Positions 202-63,940 of a DNA stretch of 64,000 nt are shown here, piece after piece; within the stretch, counting starts at the first letter, position 1, and each line of letters opens with the position of its first letter. The stretch lies in the NCBI GenBank assembly GCA_036244855.1, contig BQKZ01000745.1, positions 1 to 64,000 of the forward strand. The letters run 5' to 3'. This DNA is from Temnopleurus reevesii (Eukaryota > Echinodermata > Echinoidea > Temnopleuroida > Temnopleuridae). The notes below the pieces were generated by a model. The model searched no databases. It saw only the letters and a program-made list of their open reading frames with translations, and had not been told where the DNA came from. A program made the position numbers and the translations under genes.

Positions 202-408
202 TGACCACGTAGCTGCAGGCTTCGACTGCATTACCGTTACCCCTCCGTCAACAGGTACTAGCAATGAAACATTGATGAGTGATTTAGGCTTGTCCATTAC
301 CGGAGCATTGTATGCATAATCGATCCTTAGATCCGTGGTTGTAGCATCACACTTCCAATAGCTGCATAGGTGCAGAGGAGGGTTCTTAGACTCTGAATCA
401 GCTTTCAT
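202..408 (-). CDS. FCHO2: FCHO mu-homology-domain exon YWK...PVDGGVT (207 nt; donor tentative)
   Basis: Acceptor TTCTTGTACAG at 409-410. Product begins [20 protein letters not shown], then [20 protein letters not shown], and ends [21 protein letters not shown]. This matches ATYWK-S-STTDLRVDYKYN and [12 protein letters not shown] of the family. The frame reaches a stop at 184-186 if unspliced, so a donor is needed: TCA|GTGCAC (exon end 202, keeps phase 0) or TG|GTCAGT (exon end 206). Neither is strong. The last exon(s), with the YRLSLIKKRF-type end, must lie below position 1. Three partial copies of the 5' half lie upstream (443-558, 600-706, 770-873). Confidence 0.88.
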
Positions 409-2070
409 CTGTACAAGAAGTTTGAAAATAGAATGTTGGAGATAGATCAAGGGTATATTGTATGCATGATTGATTCTCAGATCTGTAGTTGTTGCATCGC
501 TCTTCCAATAGCTGCATAGGTGCAGGGGAGGGTACTTAGGCACCGAGTCTGCTTTCATCTATTAAAGAAAGTTGAAAAGAAGATGTCAGCGACAGATTAC
601 GATGTTGTAAGCGTAATCGATCCTTAGATCTGTAGTTGTTGCATCGCTCTTCCAATAGCTGCATAGGTGCAGGGGAGGGTTCTTAGACTCCGAGTCTGCT
701 TTCATCTGTAAGAAAAACATTTTGATTGGAAATAAAACATCACCTACAAATGTGTTGATTAACAGTGCATTCTATGGATAGTCGATCCTTAGATGTGTTG
801 TTGTGGTTGTATCACCTCCAATGGCTGCATAGATGCACAGTGGATTTTTGGACTCCAGGTATGCTTTCATCTATAAAAGATGTTTGAATATGGTAGAAAA
901 ATTCCTTAGTGCTTTCATAAACCATATTGTTGGCAGGGGATAATAAGATTAGTGTTCTTGATATTGATTTTTTTCTGTTTAAGATAATAATAATAATAAT
1001 AATAATAATAATAGATGCGATTCATAATGCGCCGAATCCATCCTGCTGGATGCTCAAGGTGCAGGAGAGAATATTAGAGGAAAGTTGGAAAGAAAGGTTG
1101 AAGGTAGAAAGGTAGAATAAATGCTGCTTAAGTTGGAGTTATGAGTAAGAGGTATTGGAAAGGTAAGTCTTATGATACTGTTTAAATTTATCGGCAGAAG
1201 TGCAATTTCTGATGATTGGTGGGAGCGTGTTCCAGAGGGTTAGATCCCTGTTTGGTGAGAGCTAAGGCTCTCACAAACAAAATTTTCAAGGTTGGCACAC
1301 CTGACCCAAAAACTTAACTAAGCAAACTAAGCAAAAATTATCAGCAGTACCTGTGGTGCACCCATTTGTTGTTGCTTTGTTTTCAAATATCCCCCAGAGA
1401 TCGAGTAGTAGCCCCATTACAAAACAACAAGTAAGCCCACTCTCCTCCTCCCCGCCCCCTCTCCCCCCCCCCCAAAAAAAATAAAAATATTAACTCCCAT
1501 ACTGGAATGATGTCGCCAAAAAGAGAGCCAATTCTGTGCTGGTTGTTTCTTCAAGCTATATAGAAAAAAACTAAAATAATGCCTCTGGCACCACCTTTCC
1601 CGAAGGAATTATAGTCCCACACCATCTTTGAGATCGGTATAGAACCAAAATTACTGAGGCACACAAGCAAGGATAGAAGTTCTTATGTTTTTGCAGTAGA
1701 AATTGGATTTCTGAATACATCCAATAAAAGATTATCGGGTGACTTGTATATTAAGTGGAAGGGGTTACAGAAATAAGCATGATCATCATAGGATAAAAAT
1801 AAAATTGATTTGATAAGTAAAAGAATTTCTTGCAATGTGCTTACTTGGTATTTCAGGATATCTACATTGAAGTACGACGCCGCAGGATTCTTCTCCACCT
1901 GTCGTCGTAATAATGTAACAAGGTTTGACATGTTGAAGATGTACGCTGTGTTCTCGCTTGTCGTCTGGGGTGCATCACTATGGAAACAAGAGAGTAAACA
2001 AAGTAAAATTAAAATGAGAATGAGTCATTATAAACAAATTGTGAGAAATTTGAACAGAAATTACATGGAA

Positions 2071-2163: not shown

Positions 2164-5100
2164 TTAATAATAAAAATATATATAGCATTAAAACATGCCC
2201 TCTCTAGTCACCCATTAAGAGGCGCATGATAATTTATCCAATATTATTACCAGGCCTTAGCATAGATGCCAAGTAGGCGCTTTTGCATTTAAAGGAATAA
2301 ATTCCTGCCGGTACCCATTACCCGGCTATAGCATGGCTACCATTTGGCGCTCACTGCAGTCAAGGAATTTCTTCCTACCGGTACATATTCACCTCACCTG
2401 GGTTGAGTGCAGCACAATGCGGATAAATTTCTTGCTGAAGGAAATGAACGTCATGGGAAGGATTTGAACCTACAACCCTCAGGTTGACAGGCGAGGGTCA
2501 GTACCTATACACCACAACGCCACAACTAAATGGGTTGTTGGGACTAGGCAAATGGGACTCAATTAATAAACTTTTCCCAGGCCATTAGAGAATTTCCAGT
2601 GATTTCTAAAAGAATTTGGGGGAAATGACATGACAACACGACAAGTAATACTTTGGGGGGGGGGGGGTTTCCAAGTTACTTAGAAGAGAGCTGGATTACA
2701 AGGAAAACAAAACCCTTTTCAGAAATCTCTTGATGAAAAATTGAGTAATAGTGGGATCGATAGTGATGACTAAAATAGAAGGGAATTTGTTGTTTGCTAG
2801 GTGAAACAATATGGTTTGCGTATCTAACAAAACATGGGCCATATTGCATAAAAAGTTGCGTTTAAATGCAACTAAGAAAATCAAACATCTAAATACACGC
2901 TCCTGATTGGTTGAAAATTTTTGGTTGGTTTTTTTTTCTGACACTCATTTAAACGCATTCTTGGAGTTAGTTTAGGACCATGAAATAACGTTTTTTTATT
3001 AGAGCGTGTTGCAAACTGGCAATTGATTGCAACTTTCTAGCAACATTCCCGTAGTGCTTGTCAGAATGTCTGATTGGTGAGTGTTTTGGATCTAAATGCA
3101 AATATAACCAGATAAGGGGTAAGAACTTAAAGTATTGAGAAGTATTTTTGGCAGAATGTCTCTGTTTTTTAAAGTCTGAATGGAAAGTAGAGTAAGTAAA
3201 AACTTACACAGAAATGAGTTGTTTGTTCGGCAGAACGTCTAAACGATGTGTGATCTTTACTCTGAAGGTAACCTTCACAAGATAGTTCTTTATAATCGTA
3301 AGTTATCTATTACTATTGTCTAAAGCTGGGAAAGAATATTGCAACTTACACAGAAATGAGTTCTTTGTTTGGCAGAACGTCTAGTCAATGTGTGTTCTTT
3401 ACTCTAAAGGCTAGCATGGCATGATAGGGTTATCATAATTGTAGGTTGTCTACTTATAATAACGACTTTAGCGGGAAAGAGTTTCACGACTTACACAGAA
3501 ATGAGTTGTTTGTTTGGCAGAACGTCTAAGCGATGTGTGTTCTTTACTCTAAAGGCTAGCATGGCATGATAGGGTTATCATAATTGTAGGTTGATAACGA
3601 CTTTAGTGGGAAAGAGTTTCACGACTTACACAGAAATGAATTGTTTGTTTGGCAGAACGTCTAGTCGACGTGTGTTCTTTACTCTAAAGGCAAACATGGC
3701 ATTATGGGGTTATCATATTCTTCAGTTGTCTATAATTAAAAAGGTCTTTAGCGATTTTGCAGGCAATTACAGCGGGAAATAGTTTCAAAACTTACACAGA
3801 AATGAGTAGTTTGTTTGGCAGAACGTCTAAACCAGGGCTGGTCTTAACGATGTGTGTTCTTTATTCTGAAGGCAAGCTTGGCATGATGGAGTTATTATAA
3901 TCATGAGTTGTCTATTCGTAAGAACGTCTCTAGCTAATCTCGGTCTCTTTTGCCAATCTTGGTTTTATTACATTACACATTAAGAGTTTCATTACTTACA
4001 CAGAAATGAGTTGTTTGTTTGGCAGCACGTCTAGTCGATGTGTGTCTTTTACTCTGAAGGCAAGTTTGGCAAGATGGGATTATAATAATATTAAGTTGTA
4101 TATTTTTAATGTCTCTAGCTGGAAAGAGTTTGACAACTTACACAGAAATTAGTTGTTCCGCTGAAAATCTAAACGTTGTGTGCTCTTACTCTGACAGTAA
4201 CCTTGGAAAATGGGATTATTATAATTGTGAGTTGTCTATTTTTAATAAGATCACTTGTTGAAAGTTTCACAACTTACACAGAAATGAGTTGTTTTGTTTG
4301 ACAGAACGTCTAGTCGATGTGTGTCTTTTACTCTGAAGGCAAGCTTGGCCAGAAGAGGTTATTATAATATGGTAATGACATCTCTACCAGGAGAGAATTT
4401 CATTACTTACACAGAAATGAGTTGTTTGTTTGGCAGAACGTCTAGTCGATGTGTGTTCTTTACTCTAAAGGCAAGCATGGCAGGTTGGGGGTTGGAGGTC
4501 AAAGCTTGAATGATGCCTGCGGGAAAGGAAAGCATCAAGTCTCCTGTGATCTTCACCATACATCTGTGGGAAAAAAGACATAATAAGATAAGACACCCTT
4601 TACATGATTATTTGAATACAAATCATACTGTGTTCTATGAAATATCCATAGAAAGCATGTTGGGGGTTAGAGGTCAACACTTGAATGACGCCAGCTGGAA
4701 AGGAAAGCATCAAGTCTCCTGTGATCTTAACCATACATCTGCAGAGAAAGAGAAGAAATAATAATAAGAGAAGAAATAATAATAAGATAAGAAACATTTT
4801 ATTAGGATTATTCGAAAACAAACTATCCAGGTATTTTAAGAAATGGAAGGGGGCTAGAGGTCAACGCTTGAATGATGCCCGCGGGAAAGGAAAGCATCAA
4901 GTCTCCTACACCTGCAGAGAAAGAGGAAGGGAAAATGATAAGATAGGACACATTTTATTATGATTATTGGAACACAAATCATTCTGCGTTTTATGAATTA
5001 ATTATAGAGGGGTGGAAGGAGGGTTAAAGGTCAACGCGTGAATGATGCTGTGATTTGGTGTAAAGCATCCAGTCTAGCATGGTCTTCACCATACACCTGC

Positions 5101-7127
5101 AGAGAAAGAGAAAAAAGCACAAGACAAGAGACATATTATCATCGTTAATGCAACAAAAATCATCATGCATCTTATGAAATATTCAAAGAGTGCAGGTTGG
5201 GGTCAGAGGTCAATGCTTGAATGATGCCAGCGGGAAAGGAAAGCATCGAGTCTCCTGTGATCTTTACCATACATCTGCAGAGAAAGAGAAGTAATAAGAT
5301 AAGACACCCTTTACATGATTATTTGAATACAAATCATACTGTGTTCTATGAAATATCCATATAAAGCATGTTGGGGGTTAGAGGTCAACGCTTGAATGAC
5401 GCCAGCGGGAAAGGAAAGCATCAAGTCTCCTGTGATCTTCACCATACATCTGCAAAGAGAGAGAAAGAGAAACGGATTAGATAAGAAATCCTTTATCATG
5501 GTTATTGGAACAAAATCATCCTGGTGTTTTATGAAATGGAAGGGGGTAGAGGTCAACGCTTGAATGATGCCCGCGGGAAAGGAAAGCATCAAGTCTCCTG
5601 TGATCTTCACCATACATCTGCAAAGAGAGAGAAAGAGAAACGGATTAGATAAGAAATCCTTTATCATGGTTATTGGAACAAAATCATCCTGGTGTTTTAT
5701 GAAATGGAAGGGGGTAGAGGTCAACGCTTGAATGATGCCCGCGGGAAAGGAAAGCATCAAGTCTCCAGTGATTTTAACCATACATCTGCAAAGAGAAATA
5801 AAAAGAGAAAGGAATTAGATAAGACACCCTCTACATGATTATTTGAATACAAATAATACTGTGTTCTCTGAAACATCCATAGAGGGCACGGTGGGGGCTA
5901 GAGGTCAACGCTTGAACGATAAGATAGGATACATTTTATTAAGATTATTGGAATACAAATCATACTGTGTTCTCTGAAATATCCATAGAGGGCACGTTGG
6001 AGGCTAGAGGTCAACGCTTGAATGATACGATAAGAAACATTTTATTATGATTATTGGAATACAAATCATACTGTGTTCTCTGAAATATCCATGGAGGGCA
6101 AGTTGGGGTTAGAGATCAACGCTTGAATGCTGCCCACCGGGAAAGGAAGCATCAGGTCTCGCATGATCTTCACCATACACCTAATATCATAAAACCTTTC
6201 TTCATTAGGCACCCCTCCCCCCTAACTAAAGCTGTCTATCCTTGTTTTCACAATACACCAATGGAAAAGAAAAGAGGAAGGGCATTTCACACACACACAC
6301 ACACACACAAAACTTATAAGGGGACACTCCAAGTCCCATGGCCCTGAAGTTTTTACTCTGGAGCATTGTACTCAAATCCTTACTTACTTTGACTGGTCAT
6401 TTCCTTTGCAGTAGACATTGACGGACTCTGTGAAGGCTGCAGCCATGGGTATTTCGTTCATTGCTAGGGGGAGGGGGCTAGTTTTCCAAAGGCCCTAAAA
6501 GTTTTTTACTCTGTCTACCATGAAACATTGTTATAAAATATTCACTTACTTTGACTGGTCGTTTCCTTTGAAGTAGGCATTAACGGACTCTGTGAAGGCT
6601 GCAGCGATGGGTATAGTATCGTTCATTCCTAGGGTGAGGGGGCTGGGTCCTCTAGAGCCCCCGACGACACCGTGAGAGTTGAAGGGAGAGAGGCCAGAGA
6701 GGGATGAGTTGCTGTCTTGTCGGGGGAGGGCGGGGTTGTCATCACCTGGGGTGGGGGACTGAAAGACAAACTTATTAATAACTTAGATTATCATTTATCT
6801 AATATTTGTGTGTATTGTCGTCTCCACATCATCCTCATCATCATCAACAACATCATTATTGTTTTCATCATCAACTTTATTGTTACATTGTCACTATTCT
6901 CTCAAGAATAATTCACTCCACAACAGCCCCCAACATCATTGCTTCATGGGTACAGTAATTACGTCAGCATGGTGTCTTTCTTGGGTGTCATCAGTTCATT
7001 TGGTTGGGCATCCCGGGTCCTGTTGTCATAGCAGTTGCTACACAGTTCACAGATCGTTTACGCTGCCACAGGTAGCATTATTTTCATTTTTACTACTATC
7101 ATTATCACCATCACTATCATCTTCATC

Positions 7128-7173
<46 letters not shown>

Positions 7174-7223
7174 CCACCACCATCACCAACAACAGCACCA
7201 TCACCAACACCACTACCACCACC

Positions 7224-7258
<35 letters not shown>

Positions 7259-10200
7259 TATCACACTAATCATCATCATCATCACCATTATCAACACCAC
7301 TATCATCATCATAATCATAATCATTACCGCCATCATCATTAGCATCATCATCATCACCATCATAATCACCACCATCATCATCACCACCATCATCATCATA
7401 ATCACAACCACCACCACCAGCACAAACTTCATTTTCATCATCATCATTACCTTCATCATCATCATAAATAGTAACACCATCACCACAACCTTCATCATCA
7501 TCATCATCATCACCTTCATCATCATCATCATCATCTGCATCACCACCACCACCACCACCACCAACAACATCACCGTCAACCATCAATACCACCACCAACA
7601 CCACTATCGCCCACCACCATCATAATCGTAATCACCATCCATCTCCTCTTCAAACCTACCTGCATTCCGCTGCGTGGTCTCGATGGAGGTCTTGCTGGTA
7701 TGTGTGGTTCATAAGAAGATGACGATGCATTAGCTACTGTCGCAAAGGTGCTACCCAGACTGTGCCTCTGCTTTGCCGGCAGCGCTGGGGGTAAGGAGTC
7801 GCTCAGGGTGGTGGGACTCTGAAGCAAATCTACTGGGATTACATGAAGAGGAGATAGAGAGTGAGGGGAGAGAGGGGATGACAGAAAGGGTGTGGGGGAG
7901 AAGAGGGAGGTGAGGGAAGGAGGTGAAAGGGGACAAGGGAGATGGGAAAATGGGGGACGGGGAAGGAGGAGACAGGGAGATAGGAGAGATTGGTTACATT
8001 TTGGAGGAGGCAGAAGAACGAGGGAAGTACATGTAGGGGAAATAGGATGAGAAAGGAAAAATATGGGAAGATAGCCGAAGAGATGGAAAAGTTGGGAAGA
8101 TTGAGTGAAGAGAGATGGGAGAGAGGATAGATCAACAGGGGCGAGGGACAGAAAGAGATGGGACAGAAAGGAAGGGCAATGTGATGAGCGAGAGGGGTAC
8201 AGAGAGTGAAAGACAAAGGAGGAGAGAAAGGGAGCAATGAGACAGGAAAAATAGGTAGGAAGAGGAAAGAAAAGAAAAAAAACCGGAAGAGGTTGGAAAT
8301 AGGATGAAAGAGGGAGGAATGGCAAAGAGACAATAGAGATAGGTAGAGATGGGCAGAGAGAGGGAAGATATGGGAGAGGATGGAGAGATAGACAGATGAG
8401 AGGAAGGGGCACAAGAGGGAAATTGGTCAATGTTGAAGAGACAGATAGGGATGGTTAAAAAAACAGAAGGAAGGGGAGGGAAAACAAAAAGAAAAAATTC
8501 ATAATATCACGAGTTCTTGAAAGCATCTTTCTGTAAAACACAATATCACAATAAATACAACCACTAAGATATCAAATTCTCATGATACGCAAAGAACGTT
8601 TACCAAATTGAGCAAAATGAAAATATTGGTTTAATCTAAATCATGATGCTGAAATGTAAAAGAGGAAAAAAATGAATATGTACAATTAATACGAAAAATA
8701 GCAGAAATGAAAAACATTGGATTACAAAGCACATTTCACAAATCACAAATTAGAAAGAATATAATTTGTATATTAAATGGTCAGTGAAATAAACTTACAG
8801 ACAAATCAAATGTACATTCATGATTATGAAGAGAAGTAAACAATGATACATGTATATCCATAATGATGCATAAATTGAACAACCACTTGGAACTGCATAC
8901 AGTATGACTTGGTGGGTTGTGTTACATAAAGTCATTCATACAAGTACATGAACGCACGACTCCACGAACAGCTCAATCAATGATAAACCCTGATATCAAA
9001 TAGCGCGGCCTGAGAAAGGGTCACCAGTCGTTTGCACAGTCTTACATAGATTTATGCATGGCATTATAAAATACAATCTAGGTTGTGTTTCAGAAAGGTA
9101 CGCAAAACTCTACGAACAACTGGTGACAATTTCCCCTCAATGATAAACCCTGATATCGCATAGCACGTCTGAAAAAAGGTCACCAGTCGTTTGTACAGTC
9201 TTACATAGATCTATACATAGTATTCAATCAACCCGCAACACTCGCCAATTCGCACCCATTTAACGGGCACGTATTCACGAAACAGACGACCATGAATAGC
9301 TAATTAGGCAATGCACCCTTGTGTTCGATCCCTTATTATTCCGTCGCATATATATAAAACCTTTGTAACATGTACATTTTCTAGCAGTTGAAAGTCCAAT
9401 CTTTCTCTGGATTTGATTTTGTTTATGATAAAGTGATATAAATTCATCCTTTATGGCATAACATTATTCACTTCAGAACAGAAACGAACTAAAATATTCA
9501 GGGACGATAAATCCCCTAATTTCTCACTTGACTCTCACCATTATCAGAGAACAATTCACCAATGCATTCTTCTGATGGAAGTGCGCATTCGCCGATTATA
9601 GATTCATTTCATAGGTGTATGTCAAATAACAGGAAAATATTGCGTTTGACGAGGTGGTGACTGTACTACATGTTAGCTGTAGAGGGCCGAGATAAAATGG
9701 AGCAATCATGCTCATTATCCATTGTTATCAAAAAGCACTGCCGGTAGACTGTATTATGAAACACAATCCAGGTTGTCTTTCTGCAAGGTGTGCATGATTC
9801 TACGAACAACTGGTGACAATTTCCCCTCACTCAATGATAACGCCTCCTATTGCAACAGTCGTGTGTACAGTTTTGCATAGATCTATGCATCGCATTATAA
9901 TACACAATCCAGGTTGTGTTACTGCAAGGTGTGCACAATTCTACGAACAACTAGAGACCCTTTCCCTCAATCAAGATTGACCCCTGATGCTGAATCACAC
10001 CTGAGAAAGGGTCACCAGTCGTTTGTAGAGTTGTGCATACCTCTACAAACAGCTTTATGAAACACCACCCTAGTTTGCCAAAGAGCAGGGAAAAGATCTT
10101 AAAAAAGAGCTCTTCTATATAAACGATTATGAGAAGTTGAATGAAATGTAATAGATACACATGTATACATGTAAAATATCTAATTTTCTTAAATTGAATG

Positions 10201-13046: not shown

Positions 13047-16000
13047 AAAAAAAAAAATGAAAAAAAAAATGGACATCAATGAAAAAAAAATATATGGTTT
13101 AGTACTGTATACAGTAAATCTATTTTCCTACACACCATGAACAGTTCGAGCAAATATCTATATTTGGCTAATTCTGAGTTATCCCTTTTGGGATATTTTC
13201 GAGCTTCACTAAACGTGTTGCATTGCGTTAGAACAGCCTGAAAGTTCAGAGCGAATTGAAAAAATCTATCTTGTTAAGGCACTTGCAAACAGGGATGATT
13301 TAAAGGTCCACTATTATGAAAATACAAGTTGATGTATTATACCATTATCAATACCCTTTTCAGTGAAAGAGGGCCCAAATGTGTTTCATATATTTTATAA
13401 TATCTTTTTTTTTTTCATTTTTATGTTGGCTTAGTAGGGAACGCCCCTAAAAATTTCTTTCAAATGTCAATCCTGTTGTGACATCACAAGAGTCAAGTTT
13501 GTTCACCTTTCTAGATCATGTTTCAGAGCTGGTTCTGTAAATAACAAAAGGAAATATGTGGATCAATGCAGGGATTTCAATTCAGGTAATTGCTCATTCC
13601 AATTCCATTTCATTGATCCACATATTTCCTTTTGTTATTTACAGAACCAGCTCTGAAACAAAATGTAGCAAGGTGAACAAACTTGACTCTTGTGATGTCA
13701 CAACAGGATTGACATTTGAAAGAAATCTGTAGGGGCGTTCCCTACTAAGCCAACATAAAATTGAAAAAAAATATTATTAATTATTATCTATATGGGAGTT
13801 TTAAGCCGTACAATATTAAGCCATATTGTACAGCTTCAATTTCNAAAGAAATTTTAGGGGCGTTCCCTACTAAGCCAACATAAAATTGAAAAAAAATATT
13901 ATTAAATATATATGAAACACATTTGGATTCTCTTTCACTGAAAAGGGTATTGATAATTTGGTACAATACATCAATACAGATCAACTTGTATTTTCATAAT
14001 AGTACCCCTTTAAGGCAATTAGCACACGGTGTATCGACCTGCAAAAAGGGTCTCCGAGAGGAAAGATTATTTATATTTTCGTATGCCAAAGAGAAAATAG
14101 TTCCACCATGTGCTACCTGTTCATCTAATAAAAAGTTGTTTCAATCCCCATAGACTTGCGTGTAAACTGGAAGGAAGTTCGAGCCGGCGGGACTTCGGAC
14201 TTAGCCTTTTTGAGCTAATATTATGTTAGCTTAATCGAGATATTTGCTCGGACTGATGAATCTAGATACAATTTCTTCTTCAAACTATGCATGTAGGGCT
14301 TAACTATGTACTATTAACTATGCCTATTAACCAAAACAGTTTTCATTGTCTACAATATGAAAAGTTGGCAATATTAGGTCGGAAATACTATGATTGCATA
14401 CTCCAAAAGAATTTCACTTTGTATTTTTCCTAACTTTGACAATATAGATTAAATTTATGGATGAAAAGCTAAGTGCAATCCAAAATACTATAAATGCCCA
14501 CTCCCACTACTCCCTCAAACCCTTGAGTGAAAAAAAAATGAAGTAAAGTGTCACTGATTCTATGAACAAGCCTAAATATTGTTTGGATATTAATACACTT
14601 TTAAGAAAATCGCTTGCAATTTACAATCATTTTTCTTGCTATATATATTCAATCATGATTTGGGCAGGTTCATAAAATCAGTGACAAAATAATCTAGATA
14701 ACTGACTGATTTAAACAGTGACTATTTTGAAGAAGTGAATCTTATCAAAGAGTATTGAGAGTGACATTTTGGTGGATTTTTATTGAAAAGTTAATTTTCA
14801 CTTATTTTGGGGGAGACGCTGTGGTCAAGATCTATGAGCGATCACAGAAGTTCCTTTAAAATTAGTGAAAGATTTTATTTCAATATTTGGGAATTTACTT
14901 TTTGAAATTTCTCACTCATAATTTTTTAGAAAGTATATTTGCAGTTGAATTTGACCAGTATAAAATCCAAATTAAAAATCAAAGAAGAAAAAAAAAATAT
15001 TGTACACTAAACAGTGAGGCATACAGATAAACTCTGTTCGGCATGCAAAGCAACCATGATTACTGTGAATATATGAAATCACACGACAGGAAGTAAAAAT
15101 GCCTCTTACTTGACGTATGTGACCTCGGTCGAGGGATAAATTCACGAGAATACCTGAAAATGCCTTATGAGAGAACAAGAATAGAGGCATATACTAAAAC
15201 ATGAAGACAATTTCAATGCAAATAAAGAGATAGCTAGGTTTTTCTAATGACAGAAAGGGTTCATAAAATTGTACACAAATTTGCAAAATACGCATGAAAA
15301 TACAGAAATAAGAGCAATACCCTTTTTTCCTCTGGGGGAAGTGTAGAAGAGCAGTCATAAAATAGTGTATTGAAAATAACAGAAGAGTGATCAATCAGGG
15401 AAAATGTTATTTCATATGCTTTAGAGGTATGCTGTGGTGCTGAATATGAAAATTCCTCTGATCACTCTAAAGGGGAAAGATACTGTTTCAACGGGAGCAT
15501 CCCACGAGTCCGACAGCCCACGAGTCAGACAGCCCACGAGTCCGACAGCTCACGAGTCCGACAGAAATGAATATAAACTTACTACATCGAAAATTTTCAA
15601 AATGAGGTTCGAGCTAGACATTTTTACTTTCACGCTCGCAAGATCGACACTGACAAATTATTTGCTTTGAGCCCGACAGCACGCAAACAGACCTACAAGA
15701 CCGACTAAGTAACGTAAATATAGTGCTGTTGAACTAATAGACCAATTTTACCTAGAGTCGGTCTCATTTGCAAAATTTTTGTTCGGTCGTAATCATGTGC
15801 GTTTTCATAATTTTGTCGGATTCATGAGTTGTCTGACTCTAATCCGTTTATATGTAATGTCTATTTCGTGTACCAATTATTCAAAATGTCGGCCTCGTGA
15901 GCTGTCGGACTCGTGGGCTGTCGGACTCGTAGGCTGTCGGACTCATCGGTAGTACCCGTTTCAACATGCTTTAGTATACTGGATAAAAGCTTTCCTTTTT

Positions 16001-35600: not shown

Positions 35601-38600
35601 TGGTGTGCTCTGGAAAGAGAGAAAATATAAATAACGATTAGTTTTTTTTAAGAATTTTTTTTTAAGTGCATGCCAACAGAAATTATTACAGATTTTGTTT
35701 TTTGCTCTGATCATAAGATGTTTTTTCAAGAAAATGTTAAAACATTCATTTTAATAACAAATCTTACTGCTGATTATTTAGTTTTTGTTTGGCTTATACA
35801 TACATGTACTTGTAGTACATGTACTGAAGAAATAGAGTATGAGATTTGGAGAAAAATATAAGAAAATGGAAACTACATAATGCTTAACTTCACAAACAAA
35901 ATTAGCATTCATATCCTATATTGCTACAAATTAAATGTCAGGGAGAAATCATTATGTAATATTTTTCCGCTAGAAGGTTGACTTTAATCAATCCTTCCTT
36001 AACAAATAGGATTACACAATGATTTACACTAATTGATATTCAGAGAACACTGTAATATTAAAACACATAATAATGTGGCAAAAAATACATAATTATACAA
36101 TACAACCACAATTTGCAACAACAATAAACCATCAATAATACAATTCACAATGCAAATGCATGAAATCATAATCACAATTTATCACTGGTCATACAAGTGC
36201 AAAATATTTAAGTGAGATACAGAATTACTCAAAATGTCACAAATTTCACAAAATACAACATCTCAATGTACATGTAAATATTTCCAATTGATCAATGCGA
36301 TTCCTAGAAAACCAAATGAGGATTAGAAAATGCACAGGCTTCAAATGCAATACACTGTAGGGGCCTGCAACATACAGTGGACCACACCATCTTTGTCAAA
36401 CAAAGCTTTGAGAGTGTAAAACAAAGCTTTGAGAGTGCCAAGCTATTGTTTGAGCACAATATCTTGCCATCCCTCAGCTTTGAGTAGTAAAAGGTGACAT
36501 TCATGAAGCTCCAATAAAAAAAAATTCTGAAAAAAGCCATCATACAATTATAGTCAGGTAGATACCATCACTAAGATTAAATATTGGGAGTATGATCCAT
36601 ATTGAAATAGAAACAATAGTGTGCACATGATGACTTGGTGTGGTATATTACGGATTATTATTTACATGTATTTACAGTCAAACTATTTTCTCGCAAGATA
36701 TATCAAAATAAAAAAGGCCTAAAAAGTTTATTGCTACAATATACTGGAGTCAGAAGGGTATTATCCATCAAATATTTTTACAGTTTCCTGCAGACACAAC
36801 ATGATACTATACAAGTGCACCATCCACACACAGAAACAAAAGAAAATTAAAGAAAATTAAAGAAAATCAAGGGGAAAAAAAGAAGGAAACACGATGCATC
36901 TCTGCTTCATTGTTTTGGCAGCGGATGGGCAATGAACATTCACCCTTTTATGGAGCATTCTTGGTACAATTGGATAAAAAAAGATCCTCTTAGCAATGGT
37001 CCATCTCAGGAAAAAACAAGTACATGTACTCTTCTGTGGCACGATGACCTTTCTTCATTTGCATAGCAAGGTCAAATCTCTTGGATAATAGACCCTTTCC
37101 TGATCCTATCATAAATCTTTACAAGTACAAAAGCTAAGACTTTCATACTAACAAAGTAATAGCCACGTGAGAAAATCCACAAAGAAAAATTGCAGATGTT
37201 CAGCATAATCATTACATTGCAAACTCTATATCGTGTAGGCACCGGTACCAAGCCCTGCAGGTGTAAGTGGCCCCCAAACCTCATGCAGTTTGTCTGAAGG
37301 GGTTTTGCTCCAAAGTTGCAATTGATCGTAAGTTGCAGTTGATCGGAACGCTCCAATCAAAATCATTGTTTTATGCGCGTCTAGTTAAATGCGCATACAG
37401 TACGCGAATGAAAATGCATGTTACAATTTGCAAAGTTGCAGTTGATTTTGAACAACACCCCCTAAGGCACGCATATATACATATATACATACATATAAGT
37501 ACACAATGCTTCATTGAGGCTAAAATCACTTCTTGATCATCAATAGCTATGCGAGATTATGGCGTACATCAATTAAAAGCTCAGAATATTGACTGCATAA
37601 TAGCATAAATATGATCTTGAAATGCGTGATGCTGTGTCTTGAAAGTTAGCACAATTGCTTGAGGGGCCACACAGTGGTAATGGTACGATAAACAAAAATA
37701 TTTACAATAGACAAAATTTTCATTTTTCTAGAATAATCCTTTTGACAAGTTTGATACAAAATCAGAGGTCACATATCAAATCTCACGCGTATGACTCAAA
37801 TCAACGAACCAATCAACCATGCTCTTCCTTTTTTAACGACATCTTTTATAGCCAAATTTTTTTTTTTTTTAAATGTTTTCTTCAACTAGACAACCTTTAC
37901 TTACGACATGGGCAGTCAAATCTCATGCAAATGACTTAAATCAATGAACCAAAAATTCATGCTCTTCATCTTTAACAACTTTATGGCCAAAGTGAAGGGC
38001 TTTGGGACGTTTCCTTCAACTACAAAAACTTAAATCAATAACATAGACGGTCAAATCTCATGCACATGACTTAAATCGACGAATGAAACGTTCATGCTGG
38101 TGCTTTTCAACAACATCTTAAAATAGTCTAGGGTGGTTTGGGACATTTCTTTCAACTAAAAAATCTTTACTCTTGACATAGACAGTCAAATCTCATACAT
38201 GTGACTTTATAATCAACGAACCAAACAATCATGCTTTTCCTTTTTAAATGACATCTTCTTTAGCCGAGGGTGGTTGGGACATTTCCTTCGCGAGAAAAAC
38301 TTAAATCTTAATACAGACAGTCAAATCTCATGCAAATGACATAAATCAACCAACCAAGCGATCATGCTATTCCTTTTTAACAACATCTTATACAGGCAAG
38401 GTTGGTGGTTTTGGAACGTTCCCTTCAACTAGAAAATCTTCACTCGTGACACAGAGAGTAAAATCTTATGCACATGACTAAAATCGAAACAAAACGTTCA
38501 TGCTTATTCCTTTTTAACAACATGGCCAAAGTTGGTGGTACAGACATTTCCTTCAACTAGCAAACCTTAACTTGTAAAACAGACAGTCAAATTTCATGAA

Positions 38601-41600
38601 TGCGATTTAACCCTAATCCCATTGGGATATTTCAGTCATCTCAGTTCATAGGGGGGGGGGGGCTTATTTGGCCCCCCCTCCCCCTCTGATCTTCGCCGTC
38701 GACCGTGCGACCGCGCCGAAATTTGGCATGCACATAGCCCGCGATGTTAACTCTTAGATTGCGTAGTCAACCTTTTCAAAAATCTACTCATTATGCTAAT
38801 TAGGCTTTAATTATGCATAATTATGCATGAATTCTAACAAACAGCAATAAATCACTTGCTGAAGATCCAAATGTGCTGATTTTTTGTCTATATACTCATA
38901 GTAATGTTTCAGACATATTGTCATGGAAAGAAGATGCAATCGAAATCTATTTCTTATGCTTTTTATTGTTTTTGTGAATTTCTTATGTATTTCTTAGTTT
39001 TTTCGACTTTATCATTTTTATTGTTTTTTCGATGGGAATTGTTGGTGACATTATTAGAGGCATAAAAAATGAATTTTAAATTCAGTTCATGCATTAATAT
39101 GCAAAATAGACAAGTATTTATGAATATTGACTAAAAACACAATTTGCATTGACTTTGTACATAAAATCACGTTTTTGACTCGTATTTGGCTCAACAAATA
39201 TTTTTCAAATGCGAGTAGCGTCGGTACCACATACCCAATCATCAAGTATTTGGTGTCAAAAGTTGCGCGAGACTTGAAAGATAAAAGTCAGAAAAGATTA
39301 TGGCGCGAGCTTCTCGCGTGTCAGATTTATCGCGAAAATTGTCGAGGGGGGGGCTTTAAAAGCCCCCCCCCCCATGGGATTAGGGTTAAATCTCAGAACG
39401 AAACTTCATGCCCTTTCGTTTGAACAACGTTATGGCTAAAGTTGGTGGTAGGGATTGATATTTCCTTCAACTAGAACATTTTTACTCAGGACACATGCAG
39501 TCAAATCTCAAGCACATGACTTAAATCGATGAACCAAGCAATCATGTTATTCCTGTTTAACGATATCTTGTAAAGCCAGCGTTGATGGTTTTGGGCACTG
39601 CCTTCAACTAGAAAATCTTTACTAATGACATAGATAGTCCAATGCACATGACTTAAATCAATGAGCTCTTCCTTTTTGTTGTTGTATGTACATGTAGCTA
39701 ACGTTGATGGGAGGGAGATTTCTTTTAATTTAAAGATCTTTGATCATGACACAAACAGTCACCTGGTTTGGTCTTTCCATGATTGCTTGCAGATGAATAT
39801 TACTAATTCTCGCAACCAACCATACACTCAACTTAAGAATCGCAGATGAAGCTATGCAGTTTTAACTAGAATGACGTCATATAAGTTGATTTACCTTCTT
39901 CCAGTTACGTATATTTACATGTGTTTTCATTTTCACAAAGGTGTTTGTTTTGCACTTTATGTTAAATATTTCCTGATATTAACTTTCATTACACCAAGTT
40001 TTGTTTTTTTATACAGTACCAAGTACCTTTGATAGTGCTAAAAGAAGAAAAATGGGCAATTATCCAAAAGGATGGCCATGGCACGTGTATTAGCTTACAA
40101 AACCGGAAGTCCCCTAGTCAACTGTAATAGATCAATATCGACGATATCGTGAGATATCGTTTAATATCCGGTATTGTCGATTACGAGAATTGGACAAGAT
40201 TTCATATGATTTGTGAACTAGAAATGTACACCAAGTAGTATAAACTAATCCAGAAAAGATATGCAAACTGATGTTATACATGCATTTTCATATGAATTTG
40301 ATACTTTCAACACGAGTGATTGGGTGAGAGCATGGCGTTCACTTGGTTACATTTGAATTTTTTCTCTTGGATATTCGGGAACAATACACATCTCCGTTAT
40401 ATCAGGAGCATCAGGTGGTATTGCTCTATATCAGGAGCATCAGGTGGTATTGCTCTATATCACTTGAGTACATGCAACGTAGCGAATTAGCAAGGAAATC
40501 CTAGTTTTAAGGGTAGAAGTTTGACAACATTTTTTTTGCAAAGGTCTACAGTTATACAATTAAAATTTATACATGTAGCCAAGCATGCCAGGCTCTACAC
40601 TTGAGGACACTTTGGGGGCAGACACTGATGGCGATTGCCTAAGGTAGCCTTACATGCAAAGACTGGAGAGAGGAGAAGTGCGTCCGTTCATTGGGATGCT
40701 TGGTAGGAAGAACCTTGCGCAAGCAAGCCTGTCGTTGGGATCAATGCATGGAGGTGATGAATGGATGGAGTGAATCATTTAAATGTGTATTAGTATGCAT
40801 TGGGAAACTATGAAAGAAATCATAAGGGGAAATTAAAGAGAAGGAAAGAAAAGATTAGGGTGGAAAGAGAAGAGAGAATGGGGAAAAGAAGAGAGTATAG
40901 AAAGGGAAATGGGAATCGAGGGAGAGGAAAATTGTAAGGTGACAACAAGTAAGGAAGAATGGGGTGGGGAAAGACTAAACACAAAAAGAAAATAGATACT
41001 GTAGAATATTGAGAGAAATTAAAGGAAGGATGGAGGACGAGGAAAAATAAGGGGAAAAAAGAAAAAAGATGGTGATGGGCAGCGGAGGGAATGCAGATTG
41101 TGAAAAGGAAATACATTTTTGTAAGAGAGAAGAGAGAGAAAGGGAGATTATGGGAATTAAAACATGTAAGCGAGAACAAGTGACATTGAAAAAATATGAG
41201 GGGGGGAATGAAAATATAGTTGATTATGGAGTCCATAAGCAGGAATAGTAAGGAATAATAGGAAATATCGAGAAAACCATACAAAGTGAAAAGAAAAGAA
41301 AAAAAAATAAGGCCAACATTCATGGAAACAGGAGAAGAGGAATTACTTCAAGAATGAGGGGAGAAGAGAATAATGGGAGGAAAAGAGCTACATGTAATTA
41401 AAGAGAAAAGAGAAAAAGAAGAAGGAAAGAAAACATGCATGTTACACATTAAAGAAAGGGGAACAAATCATACATGGAAACTGAAAAAATGAACAAAGAT
41501 AAATATAAAGAATCTGAGAAAGGAATGTGACAACTGATGACAATGGAAAACAGTGAATGATTAATCAAAATCTTCTAGGAATTTGAAGCATGTAACTACT

Positions 41601-53600: not shown

Positions 53601-56600
53601 AAGAATAAAAGAAAGAAAGAAAGATAGAATGAAAGAATAGAAGAAATACAGAACAACAGAAAGAAAAATATTCTATATACCTGGACGTTCTTTACCAGAA
53701 CATAGATATGAGTTTGATTTCCGTCAGATCTTCACATTGCTGTCTTTAGCAGTACATGATTGTATACATAGCTCCACAAATTAGAGCCACTATGAAAATA
53801 TTTTGTCCACTATATTTTCCCTATTCCTAGTGAATATAAATGATTTGTCTTTTCTCTTCATTTGCATAGCATTGTTGAGGATAATTTTTGTTATGTGTCA
53901 TTAATATCCATTTAACTCACGTAATTTAATATTGAATAAATTAATGAACCAAAGAGTAAAAGAAGAAAAGACAGAAAGAAAGAAATAAGTAAGAAAGGAA
54001 GAAAAAATATAAAAAGAATGAAAACAAAAGAAGAAAGAAACAAAGGAATAAAAGAAGGAAGGACAGACAGAAGGACAAACAGATGAACGAACAAACGCAC
54101 GAATAAATGAATGAAGGAAAGAAAGAGAGAACTAAAGAATGAACGGAAGAGATTAAGAATAAAAGAACGAAAGAATATCAAAATATACCTGGACGTTCTT
54201 TACCAGTCCCCTTGGATTCTGAGAACATAGATATGAGTTTGATTTCCGTCAGATCTTCACATTGTTCTGTGAACTCACGCTGAACCTGCACAGAAAAAAA
54301 ATGATAAGAAAAAGATTATAGTTACGGGACCATGAGGCATAGAATAGAATAGAACATTTATTTCCTTTTTCGAAATACAGAATAAACATATGTATTATCT
54401 TAAAGCCATTGTTTAACATTGTTTTCATTTAAAAAACTCTCAACTGCCAGATGATATAGTTTATCTGAAAGATTGATGGTGCATATAAACTAAACTGGGA
54501 AAATAGGCTTTAAAATCAACGTTTAGTGCTTTAACAAACAAAAATGTAAAACGTCGCCTCCATAGGCTTTGTACTGGAATTAATGCATCGGTCTTACGCT
54601 TTAATTCACTGTTCATAGATATCTTGATAGTGCATGTACAATTTTCTTTATTTTTGCATCCGCTGTTGATTTTTAATCTATCTGAATATATTTAGATAGG
54701 ACAGACAGCTTGGTTTGAGAATTTTTTAAATTGTGCAATCGCAATGTTAAACAGTGTCTTTAAAGGAGCCAAAGACCCTAAAAACGTAGCTTGTATTGGG
54801 GTTGCCTTGGCGTGTAGTAATATGATAATCGATATCATGTCAGATACAGTCAAATTTGTCTCAGCGGTTACCTGTTTAGAGTGACCATCTGTCTATTGTG
54901 GCCATCTTAATTGGTTCCCTCCAGATAAAAACATGTAGGGCCTACGATAGAAGCCGTCTATGGAGCTCACCTGTCTACAGTGGCCACTTTTTCTGTTTTG
55001 CTTGGGTGGCCACTATAGACAGGTTTGCCTGTATGTGCTCACACATAACTTTGCCTACATCAAATATCTTGGGATCACAACAGTCTGTTTGGTTTCTTAA
55101 TAGAGGATATTTGACTAACAAAAGCTGAATAATATATTAACCCTAATCCCGTTGGGGGGAGAGCTTTTAAAGCCCCCTCCTCGCGAGAAGTCTGAAATGC
55201 AAAAAGCTCACGTGATAATTTTTTACGACTTTTTTGTTTCAAGTCTTGCGCAAATTTTGAGACCAATTTCGTGATGACCGGGTATGCGGTACCGGCGCTA
55301 CGCGCATTTGAAAAAAAATTTATCACGCCAAATATGACCTAAAAACGTGATTTCATGTACAAAGTCAATGCAAATTGTGTTTTAACACACTATTCATAAA
55401 TCCTTACAAGTCTATTTTTCATATTAATTGATGAAATGAATTTAAAATCCAATTTTTTGCCTCAAATAATGTCACCAACAATTTCCAGCGAAAAATCATT
55501 TAGAAATAAGTCGAAAAAACAAAGAAATACATAAGAAATTTAAAAGAAATAAAATACATAAGAAATTAATTTTGATTGCAATTTTTTCAATGATAATATG
55601 TCTGAAACATTAAGTATCTGGAGCTTCAGCAAGTGATTTATTGCTTTTTATTAGAATTCATGCATAATTATATATAATTACTGCCTAATTACCATAATGA
55701 GTAGAATTTTTGAAAAATTTGACTACGCAATCTAAGAGTTTACATCACAGGCTATATGCATGCCAAATGGCAAAGATCAGAGGGGGGCAAATAACCCCCC
55801 CCCCCCCTATTCATAAATAGTTCTAAAAAAAAATTGATTTATTGAGGAAAATTCAGAGTTAACTGACATTTCACTTGTCTATGCATGCATAGACTCATAC
55901 TTGGCAGACTGAGGGTTAAACCCATATTTATTTAGTATTCTTTATTTTACCCCCTTCCCTATTTGAAGGTAACCTAACTTTAGAACAAAGGGGTTTCTAG
56001 CCATAAATGCTGGCACAAATGTTCCGCTGCTAATTGGGAAGCTCCTGTGTGAACATTTAAATTAACTGCTCAAAAGAGTAAGGAAACAACAAATGCAAAG
56101 TGCCATACTTCAGAAGTCACAAGGATCCTATTTTAAAGCAAGTTCTATTTCAGGTTCACATAAATGCTGCCTTTATGTATAATTTCTTTTTTTTTTTGTT
56201 GGTTACCCTAATGCATTAGAATGGTGAAAACAGAATGATCAAAGCATTGTGGAAACTGTGCTAATGAAATTATCAGAATATGCCCGGATATGCTGACAGG
56301 TTTGATCAATATGTACTTAAGAAAAAATACTTTTTCAAAAAAAATAAAGTACAATTTACCAGCATCATCATACAGAGAAATTATTTTTATTATTTATTAT
56401 CATTACCATCATCATCATCATCATCATCATCATCCTCATCATCATCATCGTCATCATCATCATCATTATTATTATTATTATCATATTATTATTATCATTA
56501 TTATTATCATCATTATTATCATTATCATCAGTATTATTATCATTATCATTTTTATTGTTATCATTATAATTGTTGAGAATAATGCTTCACGGTACAACGA

Positions 56601-59600: not shown

Positions 59601-62600
59601 AATCTTGGCTCAATTCCTGGATATCAATGAAAAGTTATAATTGACATCAAAGTTATTAATAATAATTGATCGTTTGTTGTTAGATTGGCGGTTATAGTAG
59701 CCATTCAATATCAAAAGGTCATTGCCCTTTCAACAAGTCATTATTTTTTAATTTAAGAGTTAGTTAGTTTTCTTCTCACTGCTCACCTCTCACTTACCTT
59801 TCAAATCTCCTCAACACTTTCCTTTCTTCACCTATCTCTTTTTTTTTTCTTCTTAAATTGTTTACTTCAAATAATAATATGTAATAATTTATTTTCTTTA
59901 ACTTTTTTTTCAAAGAGATGATTTTGTTCCACTTTGTTTTGTTGTAAAGGCGGTCCCAACACAAGCTGTGCTTTCTGGGTACTCGCCTCCTTTATTTTGC
60001 TTTACTTGTGTTGTTATTTGCATTGATTATGTATATGAAAAAGGAAATAAATAAATTCAATTCAATTCAATTCAAAATAGAAATATCAAGACCTTAACAG
60101 TATTTAACAACAGAAAAGAAATTAGAATGGAAATATCGTTCGTTAACAATGTAAATTTTAACTTCCCATCTGAATAGGCGGGTTTACTTATATATTTAAA
60201 TTCATGTGCGTTTAACGTAGTTACGCGGTATTCCATAGACCGGTTGATAACAATTAAAGACTACACTACTAGGAATCCAGTTTGCATACATTACTTGTTG
60301 CGATGTCGGGCCAGCCTCGGGCAAGCTTTCGGATTGTCAAAAACAACCTTTGTGTTAGAGGTATGCATAGAATTTGCATCTATTAATAAACCCGCCTATT
60401 CCTTTCCTCCCAACCTCCCTCCCAACCATTTTCAGTACTTCCTGCTTTCACAATTCTCTTTCTCACTCTTCCTCTACCTTCCCTCCCTCGTTCATACCGT
60501 CCTTTTCCCTCAGTCCTGTTACTTCCTCACTCTCCCTTCCACTTTCTCTCTCTCTCTCTCTCTCTCTCTTTCGTTCCCGATCCCACCCTCTCCTACTTCC
60601 TCGTGCCATTTCCTGATTCCCTCCTCGCCCCCTCGCTCCCTCCCTCCTTCCCCCCTTCCCTTCCTCCCTTCCCCTCCTTACTTCCTCCTCATAATCTCAC
60701 CTCCCTCTAATCTCTTCATCCCTCCCTACTTCACTAATATTCCTCCCTCCCCCCCTTCCCCCCCCCCCCAACATGCACCCCTCCCTTTTTCTTATCAACC
60801 AAATAAATACTACATAACAAGCTAAACCGCAAACAAACTTTTAAACCTCAATAAAAATACACTCCCATATCTAGGAACCCCTCTGACGGAACGAAACCTA
60901 GGCAGACATACCAACTGGCGCCACATGTTTGGAAAGCTTCAAGGAACACATTGATTGCTACCACGTGAATGAACTATAGGAAAAGGTCCATTAAAGAGCA
61001 TTCGCTACGGAGTCCTGACAGCTTTATTACTCATGGGAGAGAGAAAATAGGAAAGGTAGACTTTTGACGTCATATGATTCAGTCAATTGACGTGGGTTGT
61101 GCCATGAAACGCTAGACCAAAAACAGCTGGCATACACGTGCGTAATAAATATAGCTCAACATATGACAAGTTCAAGACCAATTTGACTAATATATTTTGC
61201 TTAACAATAGGAAAACAAAAGTTCCTAGTGTAATAACCACCAAAATATTCAAATCTTGTAAATATAATAGAAGGGAGTGTGAAGAATTCTGAAACATATT
61301 CTTCACTAATATATATATATATATATATAATTGTTGCTAAAGTCATTCTTAATAGAGTATTAATTATATCACCGACATTGGTAAGATGTAAAAATTTGGT
61401 GGTCAGTACGTGTAAAATTGTACCTTTCTTTTTGTGGCATTTCGGGTTGTTACAGGTTACAAGTAATTCCCAAACAGAGAATGGGTATTAAAAGTCTAAA
61501 CGATCCTAGAAATAGGGATATTCGTAACTGCATAGAAACCCTACAAATATTTTGCAATATCTACCTTAGTTTTCATTAATAAATTCTTATTGAAAGTTTG
61601 AAATCAAAAACATATATCCTTGGAAATCTAATGAATGCTTGTCATTGATTTATCCCTAATTGTACAAGGCTGCTCAGCAAGGGAAAGTTCACATAATAAT
61701 AATAAATTGTACTTATAAAGTGCATATCATGTGTAACTTCTAGACTGCATACCCAGTTGTCGCAAATCTGGTCTGGACAGTTTTGTGAGATTTCAAAGAA
61801 AAAAGTTACAATCCTGCAGGCCATCATACTCCNNNNNNNNNNNNNNNNNNNNNNNNNNNNNNNNNNNNNNNNNNNNNNNNNNNNCCCCCCCCCCCCCCCC
61901 CCTCTGTAGATATAGGGTTCAATTTTGTCAAAGGTTTTTCCTCCTCCTTCATCTTCTGCTTGTCATTGCTGCATATTAACCATGTTCAGGCAAGAACGTT
62001 ATGGGAGGGGCACACTGATTGCTCACAAAATATATAAATATCCCACTCCTGACACCTACCTTAATCCTCTACTCTCAAAGCTTAACAGCTTGGGGAAACC
62101 TTGGAGTAATCTGCATAAATCTTAAGGTCATTGCTGGGGCTTGTAGATCAATAATAATACCGGATGATACATAGTCATATCACATGGCATTTGAGGAGCA
62201 TATTTCTTAAGGATAGGAGCTGGGTCTTATTACTTCCGACATTTCTTTTTTCTTTAAAAAAAAAGTCATATTTTTTCAACTAAGTGGGCGTTTAAAAATG
62301 AATCATGTTGTTCCGTCATTTTAATTTGATCCATCTGTTCATATACCAAGTTAAAGAAATGATTGTCTGAAACGATATCACAGATTCTACCAAAATTATG
62401 AACTCAAGGATTCCTATCGGAGGGATTACCAAAAGGTTTCAAATGGATAGCTCCTAAAAGGATTACATGTATTTGATTTTGGGTAGAGCTTTTGCAGTTT
62501 TGTTATTACTTGTTGTTATTCTTCTTTCACTGAAAGCACCTTTAGCCCCCCCCCCCCCTAAAAAAAAAAAATACATTGGCTGCCCAAATCAGTCGGGAAA

Positions 62601-63554: not shown

Positions 63555-63730
63555 CTGGGAGATATAGGAAAAAAACAAAGAATAAGATTTTGGAGATGAT
63601 TCATTCATATAAATAAAAGATTATTTGCAGGAAAATAATCAATGGATTCTATTCATTGAATGATTTCCCATATGGTGTTAGTAGCTGGTGTTAGTGTTTA
63701 TTTAACCTAAATAACAATAAAACACAGAAT

Positions 63731-63900
63731 GTAGAGCTTCAAATTTCTCAGACATATAGAAAATGACAAAGAATAAGAGATTGGAGATAATTCATTCAAA
63801 ATACAAATTAAAGATCATTTGCAGGCAAATAATCAATGGATTCAATTCATTAGGTAATTTCCCGTATAGCTGGTGTTAGTGTTTATGTAACACTAGATAA
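63731..63900 (-). repeat. Upstream copy of intron end plus first bases of exon 63456-63554
   Basis: The stretch 63541-63720 (exon start, acceptor and about 150 bp of intron) is repeated at 63731-63900. Only the first ~15 exon bases are included (AAATTTGAAGCTCTAC versus AAATTCGAAGCTCTAG), and the acceptor CAG has become GAG. Same polarity as the other arrays: 5' part copied upstream. Confidence 0.75.
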
Positions 63901-63940
63901 CAATTAAACACAATCATGGAAAGAACAAAATAAGTCTATG

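Follow-up and report, generated by a model that had tools for sequence, protein, structure and literature searches.

A muniscin exon in a sea urchin is flanked on both sides by tandem arrays of its own halves

In the sea urchin Temnopleurus reevesii, one exon of a gene for an FCHo-type muniscin, an endocytosis protein, lies between two tandem arrays built from its own parts: copies of its 5' half with the acceptor on the upstream side and copies of its 3' half with the donor on the downstream side. The stretch analyzed, here called the window, comprises positions 1-64000 of contig BQKZ01000745.1 in a 558-Mb draft genome of 10433 contigs (GCA_036244855.1). An intronless DYRK2-like kinase of this genome, 93% identical to a protein cluster labeled Diadema setosum (a sea urchin), 78% to Patiria miniata (a sea star), and 76-77% to crinoids, likewise suggests a sea urchin. 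The repeat is of a known kind, not a new one, and the locus is a striking two-sided case of it: the boundary minisatellites termed "mirages" in the amphioxus Adh3 and globin genes (PMC3087553). The two arrays probably form a two-sided mirage, largely neutral, enlarged by unequal exchange, and removed from the transcript as intron. As far as the literature was searched, the novelty lies in the arraying of both edges of one exon, in the split at nearly the same point, and in the occurrence outside amphioxus.

Anatomy of the focal exon and its two arrays

The features of the focal exon, with the evidence for each, are as follows.

4411-4563, minus strand: focal exon, 153 nucleotides (nt), in the mu-homology domain (muHD) part of the FCHo-type muniscin (Pfam muHD; SGIP1 alignment; genome search)
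4655-6182, minus strand: upstream array, ten units of intron end plus focal-exon 5' half (tandem-repeat detection, alignments)
3202-4349, minus strand: downstream array, eight units of focal-exon 3' half, donor GTAAGT, and intron start (tandem-repeat detection, alignments)
About 3119-3161, minus strand: decayed ninth 3'-half unit, donor GT lost (score equalled in 3 of 2000 shuffles)
4479-4490, minus strand: internal split point common to both arrays, exon offset 74-85 (unit alignments)

The muniscin is encoded by minus-strand exons spread over the window between about 63.5 and about 0.2 kb, in the order of F-BAR-region exons (63457-63555 and 54188-54286), linker exons, and the mu-homology domain; their positions come from a search with an FCHO2 probe, plus further comparisons. 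When the window exons are joined in translation, Pfam recognizes the muHD (E=7.1e-40), the structures of SGIP1 and FCHO1 are matched, and the top matches are FCHo2-type proteins, the first being that of Saccoglossus (46%). The focal exon has the acceptor CACAG/ATG and the donor CTGT/GTAAGT, and both of its authentic exon/intron boundaries are intact, adjoining the two arrays. Its peptide aligns to the SGIP1 muHD structures continuously across the split point, with a one-residue gap elsewhere, and because the alignment to a solved domain crosses this point, the joined exon is the functional form. An earlier sequence-only reading of this DNA had singled out 4411-4563 as the sole joined copy. In agreement, a genome search with the focal-exon DNA, in which very common words were skipped and only the best candidates were scored, returned 15 matches, all at this locus and only one of them full length.

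Both arrays were detected as head-to-tail repeats by Tandem Repeats Finder and by a second repeat search. Eight of the ten upstream units keep an AG acceptor. In seven of these, CAG follows 15 to 16 pyrimidines out of 16, compared with 14/16 at the genuine acceptor, the first exon bases being 4738, 4911, 5096, 5274, 5449, 5617, and 5785; the eighth, at 6180, is poor (TTAG, 6/16 pyrimidines). The two units without an acceptor, at about 5885-5920 and about 5991-6026, retain exon bases 50-85. Neighboring acceptors are spaced 168-185 nt apart from 4563 to 5785. The five best-kept of the eight 5' halves have a mean pairwise identity of 93%, units 5374-5541 and 5542-5709 are 98% alike, and a 711-nt higher-order duplication pairs 4488-4754 with 5199-5465 (93%, aligned as a gapped match). 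A 167-codon open frame (5311-5814, minus strand) crosses three upstream units and is probably incidental, favored by a unit period, 168 nt, divisible by three.

On the downstream side, a scan that tolerated up to two mismatches found the donor block ATTTCTGTGTAAGT unchanged at nine sites in the window, namely, the genuine donor at 4411 and eight decoys at 4278, 4142, 4000, 3796, 3630, 3495, 3350, and 3208; the two remaining window matches each carry two mismatches. The donors are 133-204 nt apart. Seven of the eight 3' halves have a mean pairwise identity of 86%, and the 3' decoys contain stops, one inserted base, a 16-nt insertion, and deletions. The sequence-only reading had counted about ten upstream copies and eight downstream copies; ten were found, eight of them with AG, and the eight downstream copies recur at the same coordinates, to which the decayed ninth is added. 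Its impression that the decoys look as good as the functional sites likewise stands, given seven CAG acceptors behind near-complete pyrimidine runs and eight identical donors. Mutually exclusive arrays of the Dscam type consist of tandem whole exons, each with both splice sites. The arrays resemble them in being tandem exon-derived units within a gene, but the units are halves with one splice site each, as had been noted; a Dscam-type mutually exclusive array was rejected because none of the units is a complete exon carrying both splice sites.

The two arrays break the exon at nearly the same place. Among the 5' units, the exon sequence stops at offset 75-85 in all eight that have an acceptor and at 85 in the two that lack one; among the eight 3' units, it starts at offset 74-83 in six and at 90 and 98 in the remaining two, which are decayed. 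The inner breakpoints of the two arrays fall within about 10 bases of each other; by a rough estimate, two independent breakpoints in an exon of 153 nt would coincide to within ten bases about 1 time in 8, and it is possible that one break inside the focal exon seeded both arrays. The earlier claim that the arrays arose separately had been based on their differing periods: the periods do differ (168-185 versus 133-204 nt), whereas the separate origin is not upheld, given the closeness of the inner breakpoints. An ancestral exon pair that lost its intron was also considered and rejected, as no donor follows the 5' halves and no acceptor precedes the 3' halves at the split point.

Origin of the arrays and rival explanations

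Among the pairings of splice sites examined, only the genuine one yields an open exon. Seven acceptors with an exact exon start were combined with nine donors (starts at 4907 and 6179, a few bases off, were excluded), and an in-frame stop was present in 62 of the 63 pairs, the genuine pair alone being open. All eight pairs that run from the genuine acceptor past the genuine donor contain a stop, which is reached at once because that donor reads GTG TAA in frame; pairs using decoy acceptors also run into stops.

The favored explanation is tandem duplication with the inner breakpoint in the exon. A duplication with one breakpoint in the exon and the other in the intron would place a partial copy in that intron; the acceptor edge would be copied upstream and the donor edge downstream, with the exon left whole. 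The observed layout of 5' parts upstream and 3' parts downstream is that expected, because tandem duplication of this kind must place them so. Unequal exchange, of which the 711-nt higher-order duplication and the 98% unit pair are signs, would then have expanded each partial copy to an array. The decoys fall inside the two flanking introns of the transcript, one between the 6549 donor and 4563, the other between 4411 and an exon at about 1978. Because the genuine acceptor-donor pair is the only one examined that has a stop-free frame, splicing output would be kept normal by exon definition combined with the decay of mis-spliced RNA. Exon definition would disfavor the far decoys, not the nearest; traces of exons of 286 and 328 nt would be expected and would be destroyed as nonsense RNA. 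The arrays would have no protein-coding role and, we infer, no function.

Several observations weigh against so neutral a history. The nearest decoy-paired exons, the 286- and 328-nt ones, are short enough for exon definition. The donor block, from exon position -8 to intron position +6, shows zero changes in 14 columns across the exon and eight decoys, while the flanking columns average 1.26 changes; an unchanged stretch of that length arises in 0.03% of column shuffles, and a donor nine-mer free of changes in 0.055%, in tests that left out the decayed ninth decoy, treated columns as independent, and ignored relatedness and local exchange. Neutral decay should not produce such invariance, and therefore it counts against the neutral account, an objection tempered by the ninth unit outside the shuffle test, which has lost its donor. 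Exonic parts are also more alike than intronic parts, at 86% versus 74% in the 3' units (seven units, 16 of 21 pairs) and 93% versus 85% in the 5' units (five units, 8 of 10 pairs), which could be explained by exchange with the constrained exon, although codon-position bias in the 3' halves is slight. The outer units 6180 and 3208 and the remnant 3119-3161 are strongly diverged, and the inner units 5096 and 4142 are even more so; the pattern of the published mirages, in which outer units are described as exempt from homogenization, is thus blurred here. The synonymous excess in the 5' halves varies with the units counted: it has p=0.03 once the two most decayed decoys are omitted, and p=0.002 with the genuine exon added. 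Lastly, in the survey described below, short kinase exon cores are copied about twice as often as non-exon tiles (9/40 versus 45/425, one-sided p=0.03), a further difficulty because random duplication predicts less; part of this excess may be a detection bias that stems from slower decay of the constrained parent copy.

The donor invariance is the basis of an alternative in which selection keeps the decoy donors: a row of strong 5' splice sites would recruit the U1 small nuclear ribonucleoprotein and help define the exon, or would keep the intron from being cleaved too early, with the remainder of each unit free to drift. Besides the 14 invariant columns lying exactly over the donor in nine copies and ending at intron +6, this idea draws on the little codon-position bias in the 3' halves (distinct changes number 13 at first, 8 at second, and 13 at third positions), since conversion by a constrained exon should then not spare the donor alone. 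It is nonetheless considered improbable: the decayed ninth decoy lacks a donor, the acceptor columns of the other array are unconstrained beyond the AG (7 changes in 7 columns, none at AG), and the column shuffles disregard relatedness and local exchange. A fuller version, also regarded as unlikely, makes the downstream array a selected bank of 5' splice sites that defines the exon or holds the intron, with both arrays perhaps from one break repaired from both ends; if it were true, an initially neutral repeat would have become an input to the splicing machinery.

Less probable still is that the arrays feed alternative splicing, with the decoy halves serving as alternative exon starts or ends in protein or regulatory isoforms. 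The AG of eight 5' decoys, the GTAAGT of eight 3' decoys, and the 167-codon frame through three upstream units would suit this proposal, but nearly every acceptor-donor pair examined carries an in-frame stop. Moreover, at the split, GT is absent from the 5'-half ends and AG from the 3'-half starts (eight plus eight units), the exception being one decayed 3' unit that starts inside the exon. Coding constraint is weak as well: the synonymous fraction is 0.35 versus 0.26 expected in the eight 5' decoy halves (p=0.13) and 0.34 versus 0.28 expected in the eight 3' decoy halves (p=0.25), and protein-coding decoys were rejected because, apart from the two subsets already given, the excess is not significant with all eight decoys per side. 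A false array, stitched by the assembler from unequal haplotypes or collapsed repeats, is scarcely to be expected either. Such an error is conceivable in a draft of 10433 contigs, the draft version of one amphioxus mirage looked aberrantly assembled (PMC3087553), and one unit pair is 98% identical; how many such near-identical units there are could still be wrong. Most units, however, diverge from one another by several to more than 20%, and because the copies differ, they are not a single unit that was misassembled repeatedly. The array region is free of N (in the window N occurs only at 13844 and 61833-61884), the focal exon returned no second contig in the genome search, and unrelated contigs also show partial exon copies. 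A dispersed satellite or transposon was rejected, as the focal-exon DNA and the intron part of a 5' unit matched this locus only, the latter having no match elsewhere in the genome among the best candidates scored; with these two parts covered, the check supports the sequence-only reading in part.

Comparison with known boundary repeats

The sequence-only reading knew of no described gene of this sort, which overstates the case: tandem duplications at either exon boundary have been published for amphioxus globin genes and Adh3, and cases in troponin C and PGBD5 are mentioned. As in those mirages, the arrays are head to tail, each unit spans one exon/intron boundary and combines an intron end, a splice signal, and part of an exon, unit lengths are similar, the authentic boundary stands intact beside the array, and many repeats carry AG or GT; the splice signal is absent in 2/10 5' units and 1/9 3' units. 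The mirage of amphioxus BflGb6 has units of 150-160 bp, with six and three repeats in two haplotypes, and that of BflGb9 a unit of 157 bp (PMC3087553). Copy number is unstable there, and reverse transcription-PCR and Adh3 data suggest that regular splicing is undisturbed (PMC3087553). In contrast to amphioxus, where splicing and copy-number data exist and either exon edge is affected, the arrays described here lie at both edges of one exon, number ten and nine units, share a nearly common split point, and occur in a sea urchin. Lancelet PGBD5 carries imperfect repeats of 60 and 108 bp over splice sites, supported by resequencing and thought harmless to splicing, in 2 or 7 and 3 or 6 copies depending on the assembly; Adh and troponin C are mentioned alongside (PMC3902484). 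Those repeats belong to two neighboring exons (3 and 4), whereas here they belong to two edges of one exon. Among the matches listed in the open-licence literature, neither an exon with both edges arrayed nor a sea urchin mirage was found, which is not proof of absence.

In humans, introns can arise from tandem repeats at exon-intron boundaries (PMC2812944), and repair-mediated duplications include partial exons and splice sites (PMC2671141). The present locus is like intron gain by tandem duplication in that a duplication covers a splice boundary and may provide raw material for a new intron; those cases yield a new intron or an altered transcript, whereas the exon of this locus remains whole, with no gained intron observed. 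Gain or change of introns by tandem duplication was reportedly treated by Rogers in 1989 and by Gao and Lynch in 2009. The mirage papers propose, from amphioxus, the birth of new introns and alternative splice sites.

How the spliceosome chooses one exon among equal-looking sites is a standing question, and the locus amounts to a ready-made experiment, with seven good decoy acceptors on one side and eight identical donors on the other. RNA reads over this one locus would measure the effects of order, distance, and pairing without cloning. If partial copies occur at the rate of the kinase sample (9/40 short cores), the genome is rich ground for watching new introns and alternative splice sites arise.

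Edge copies at other exons and in the genome

Three further window exons of the muniscin gene have clear edge copies and a fourth a marginal one; all of them show the same placement as the focal exon, with 5' parts upstream and 3' parts downstream. Four of the ten known window exons lie above the edge-copy cutoff (3-kb limit).

6549-6769, minus strand: preceding muHD exon (upstream end approximate), parent of the downstream copy 6364-6479
6364-6479, minus strand: one downstream copy of the 3' half and donor of exon 6549-6769, 86% identical
202-408, minus strand: second muHD exon downstream of the focal one (donor end uncertain), from which three upstream partial copies derive
420-900, minus strand: three upstream copies of the 5' edge of exon 202-408, period about 150 nt, AG kept in all three
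53675-53739, minus strand: downstream copy of the 3' half and donor of F-BAR-region exon 54188-54286, lacking 17 internal nt
63732-63912, minus strand: marginal upstream copy, mostly intronic, of the intron end and first 16 nt of F-BAR-region exon 63457-63555; below the survey cutoff

The copy at 53675-53739 may be young or kept alike by conversion, since its exonic bases are identical to the parent save for the deletion while the adjoining intron differs.

Local tandem duplication is common in this genome. Kinase exons were sampled with 71 queries, all among the PF00069 matches listed (137). A first survey with a 3-kb limit found copies for 12/57 exon queries, which included some repeats of one array and whole-exon copies, versus 22/196 control segments from kinase loci and 14/184 window tiles. 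In a revised survey, 14 cores were added, 6 queries (copies or tandem intronless open reading frames) were removed, and the limit was set at 1 kb, giving 65 distinct cores; control tiles were dropped if they matched exon cores or lay in the window exon-edge arrays. Partial copies on the same strand and no more than 1 kb away were present for 10/65 cores (9/40 short and 1/25 long) and for 45/425 non-exon tiles (31/234 in kinase loci of at least 5.5 kb and 14/191 in the window). A strong preference of duplication for exons was rejected, as the excess is only about twofold at a one-sided p of 0.03 and detection bias is plausible. All ten copies of kinase cores lie on the side required by tandem duplication (judged from their coordinates, with one strand taken from the alignment), and splice sites were inspected by alignment for four of the ten exons. 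None of the 40 short kinase cores had both edges copied. One exon of an ERK-like kinase (L039:3029-3964, contig C537) has three upstream copies of its acceptor and 5' part, 94-99% identical and repeated every 238 nt; another exon on the same contig (L039:9384-9581) has a downstream copy of its donor edge.

Elsewhere in the window, no RNA families or tRNAs were found at default thresholds. An imperfect, long ATC/CAC trinucleotide tract occupies 7098-7622, in the intron between exons 7640-7830 and 6549-6769. Finally, an array at 37776-38608 and 39386-39664, with a period of about 135-140 nt, copies about 70-76% alike, and no linked exon found, exemplifies the background of tandem duplication.

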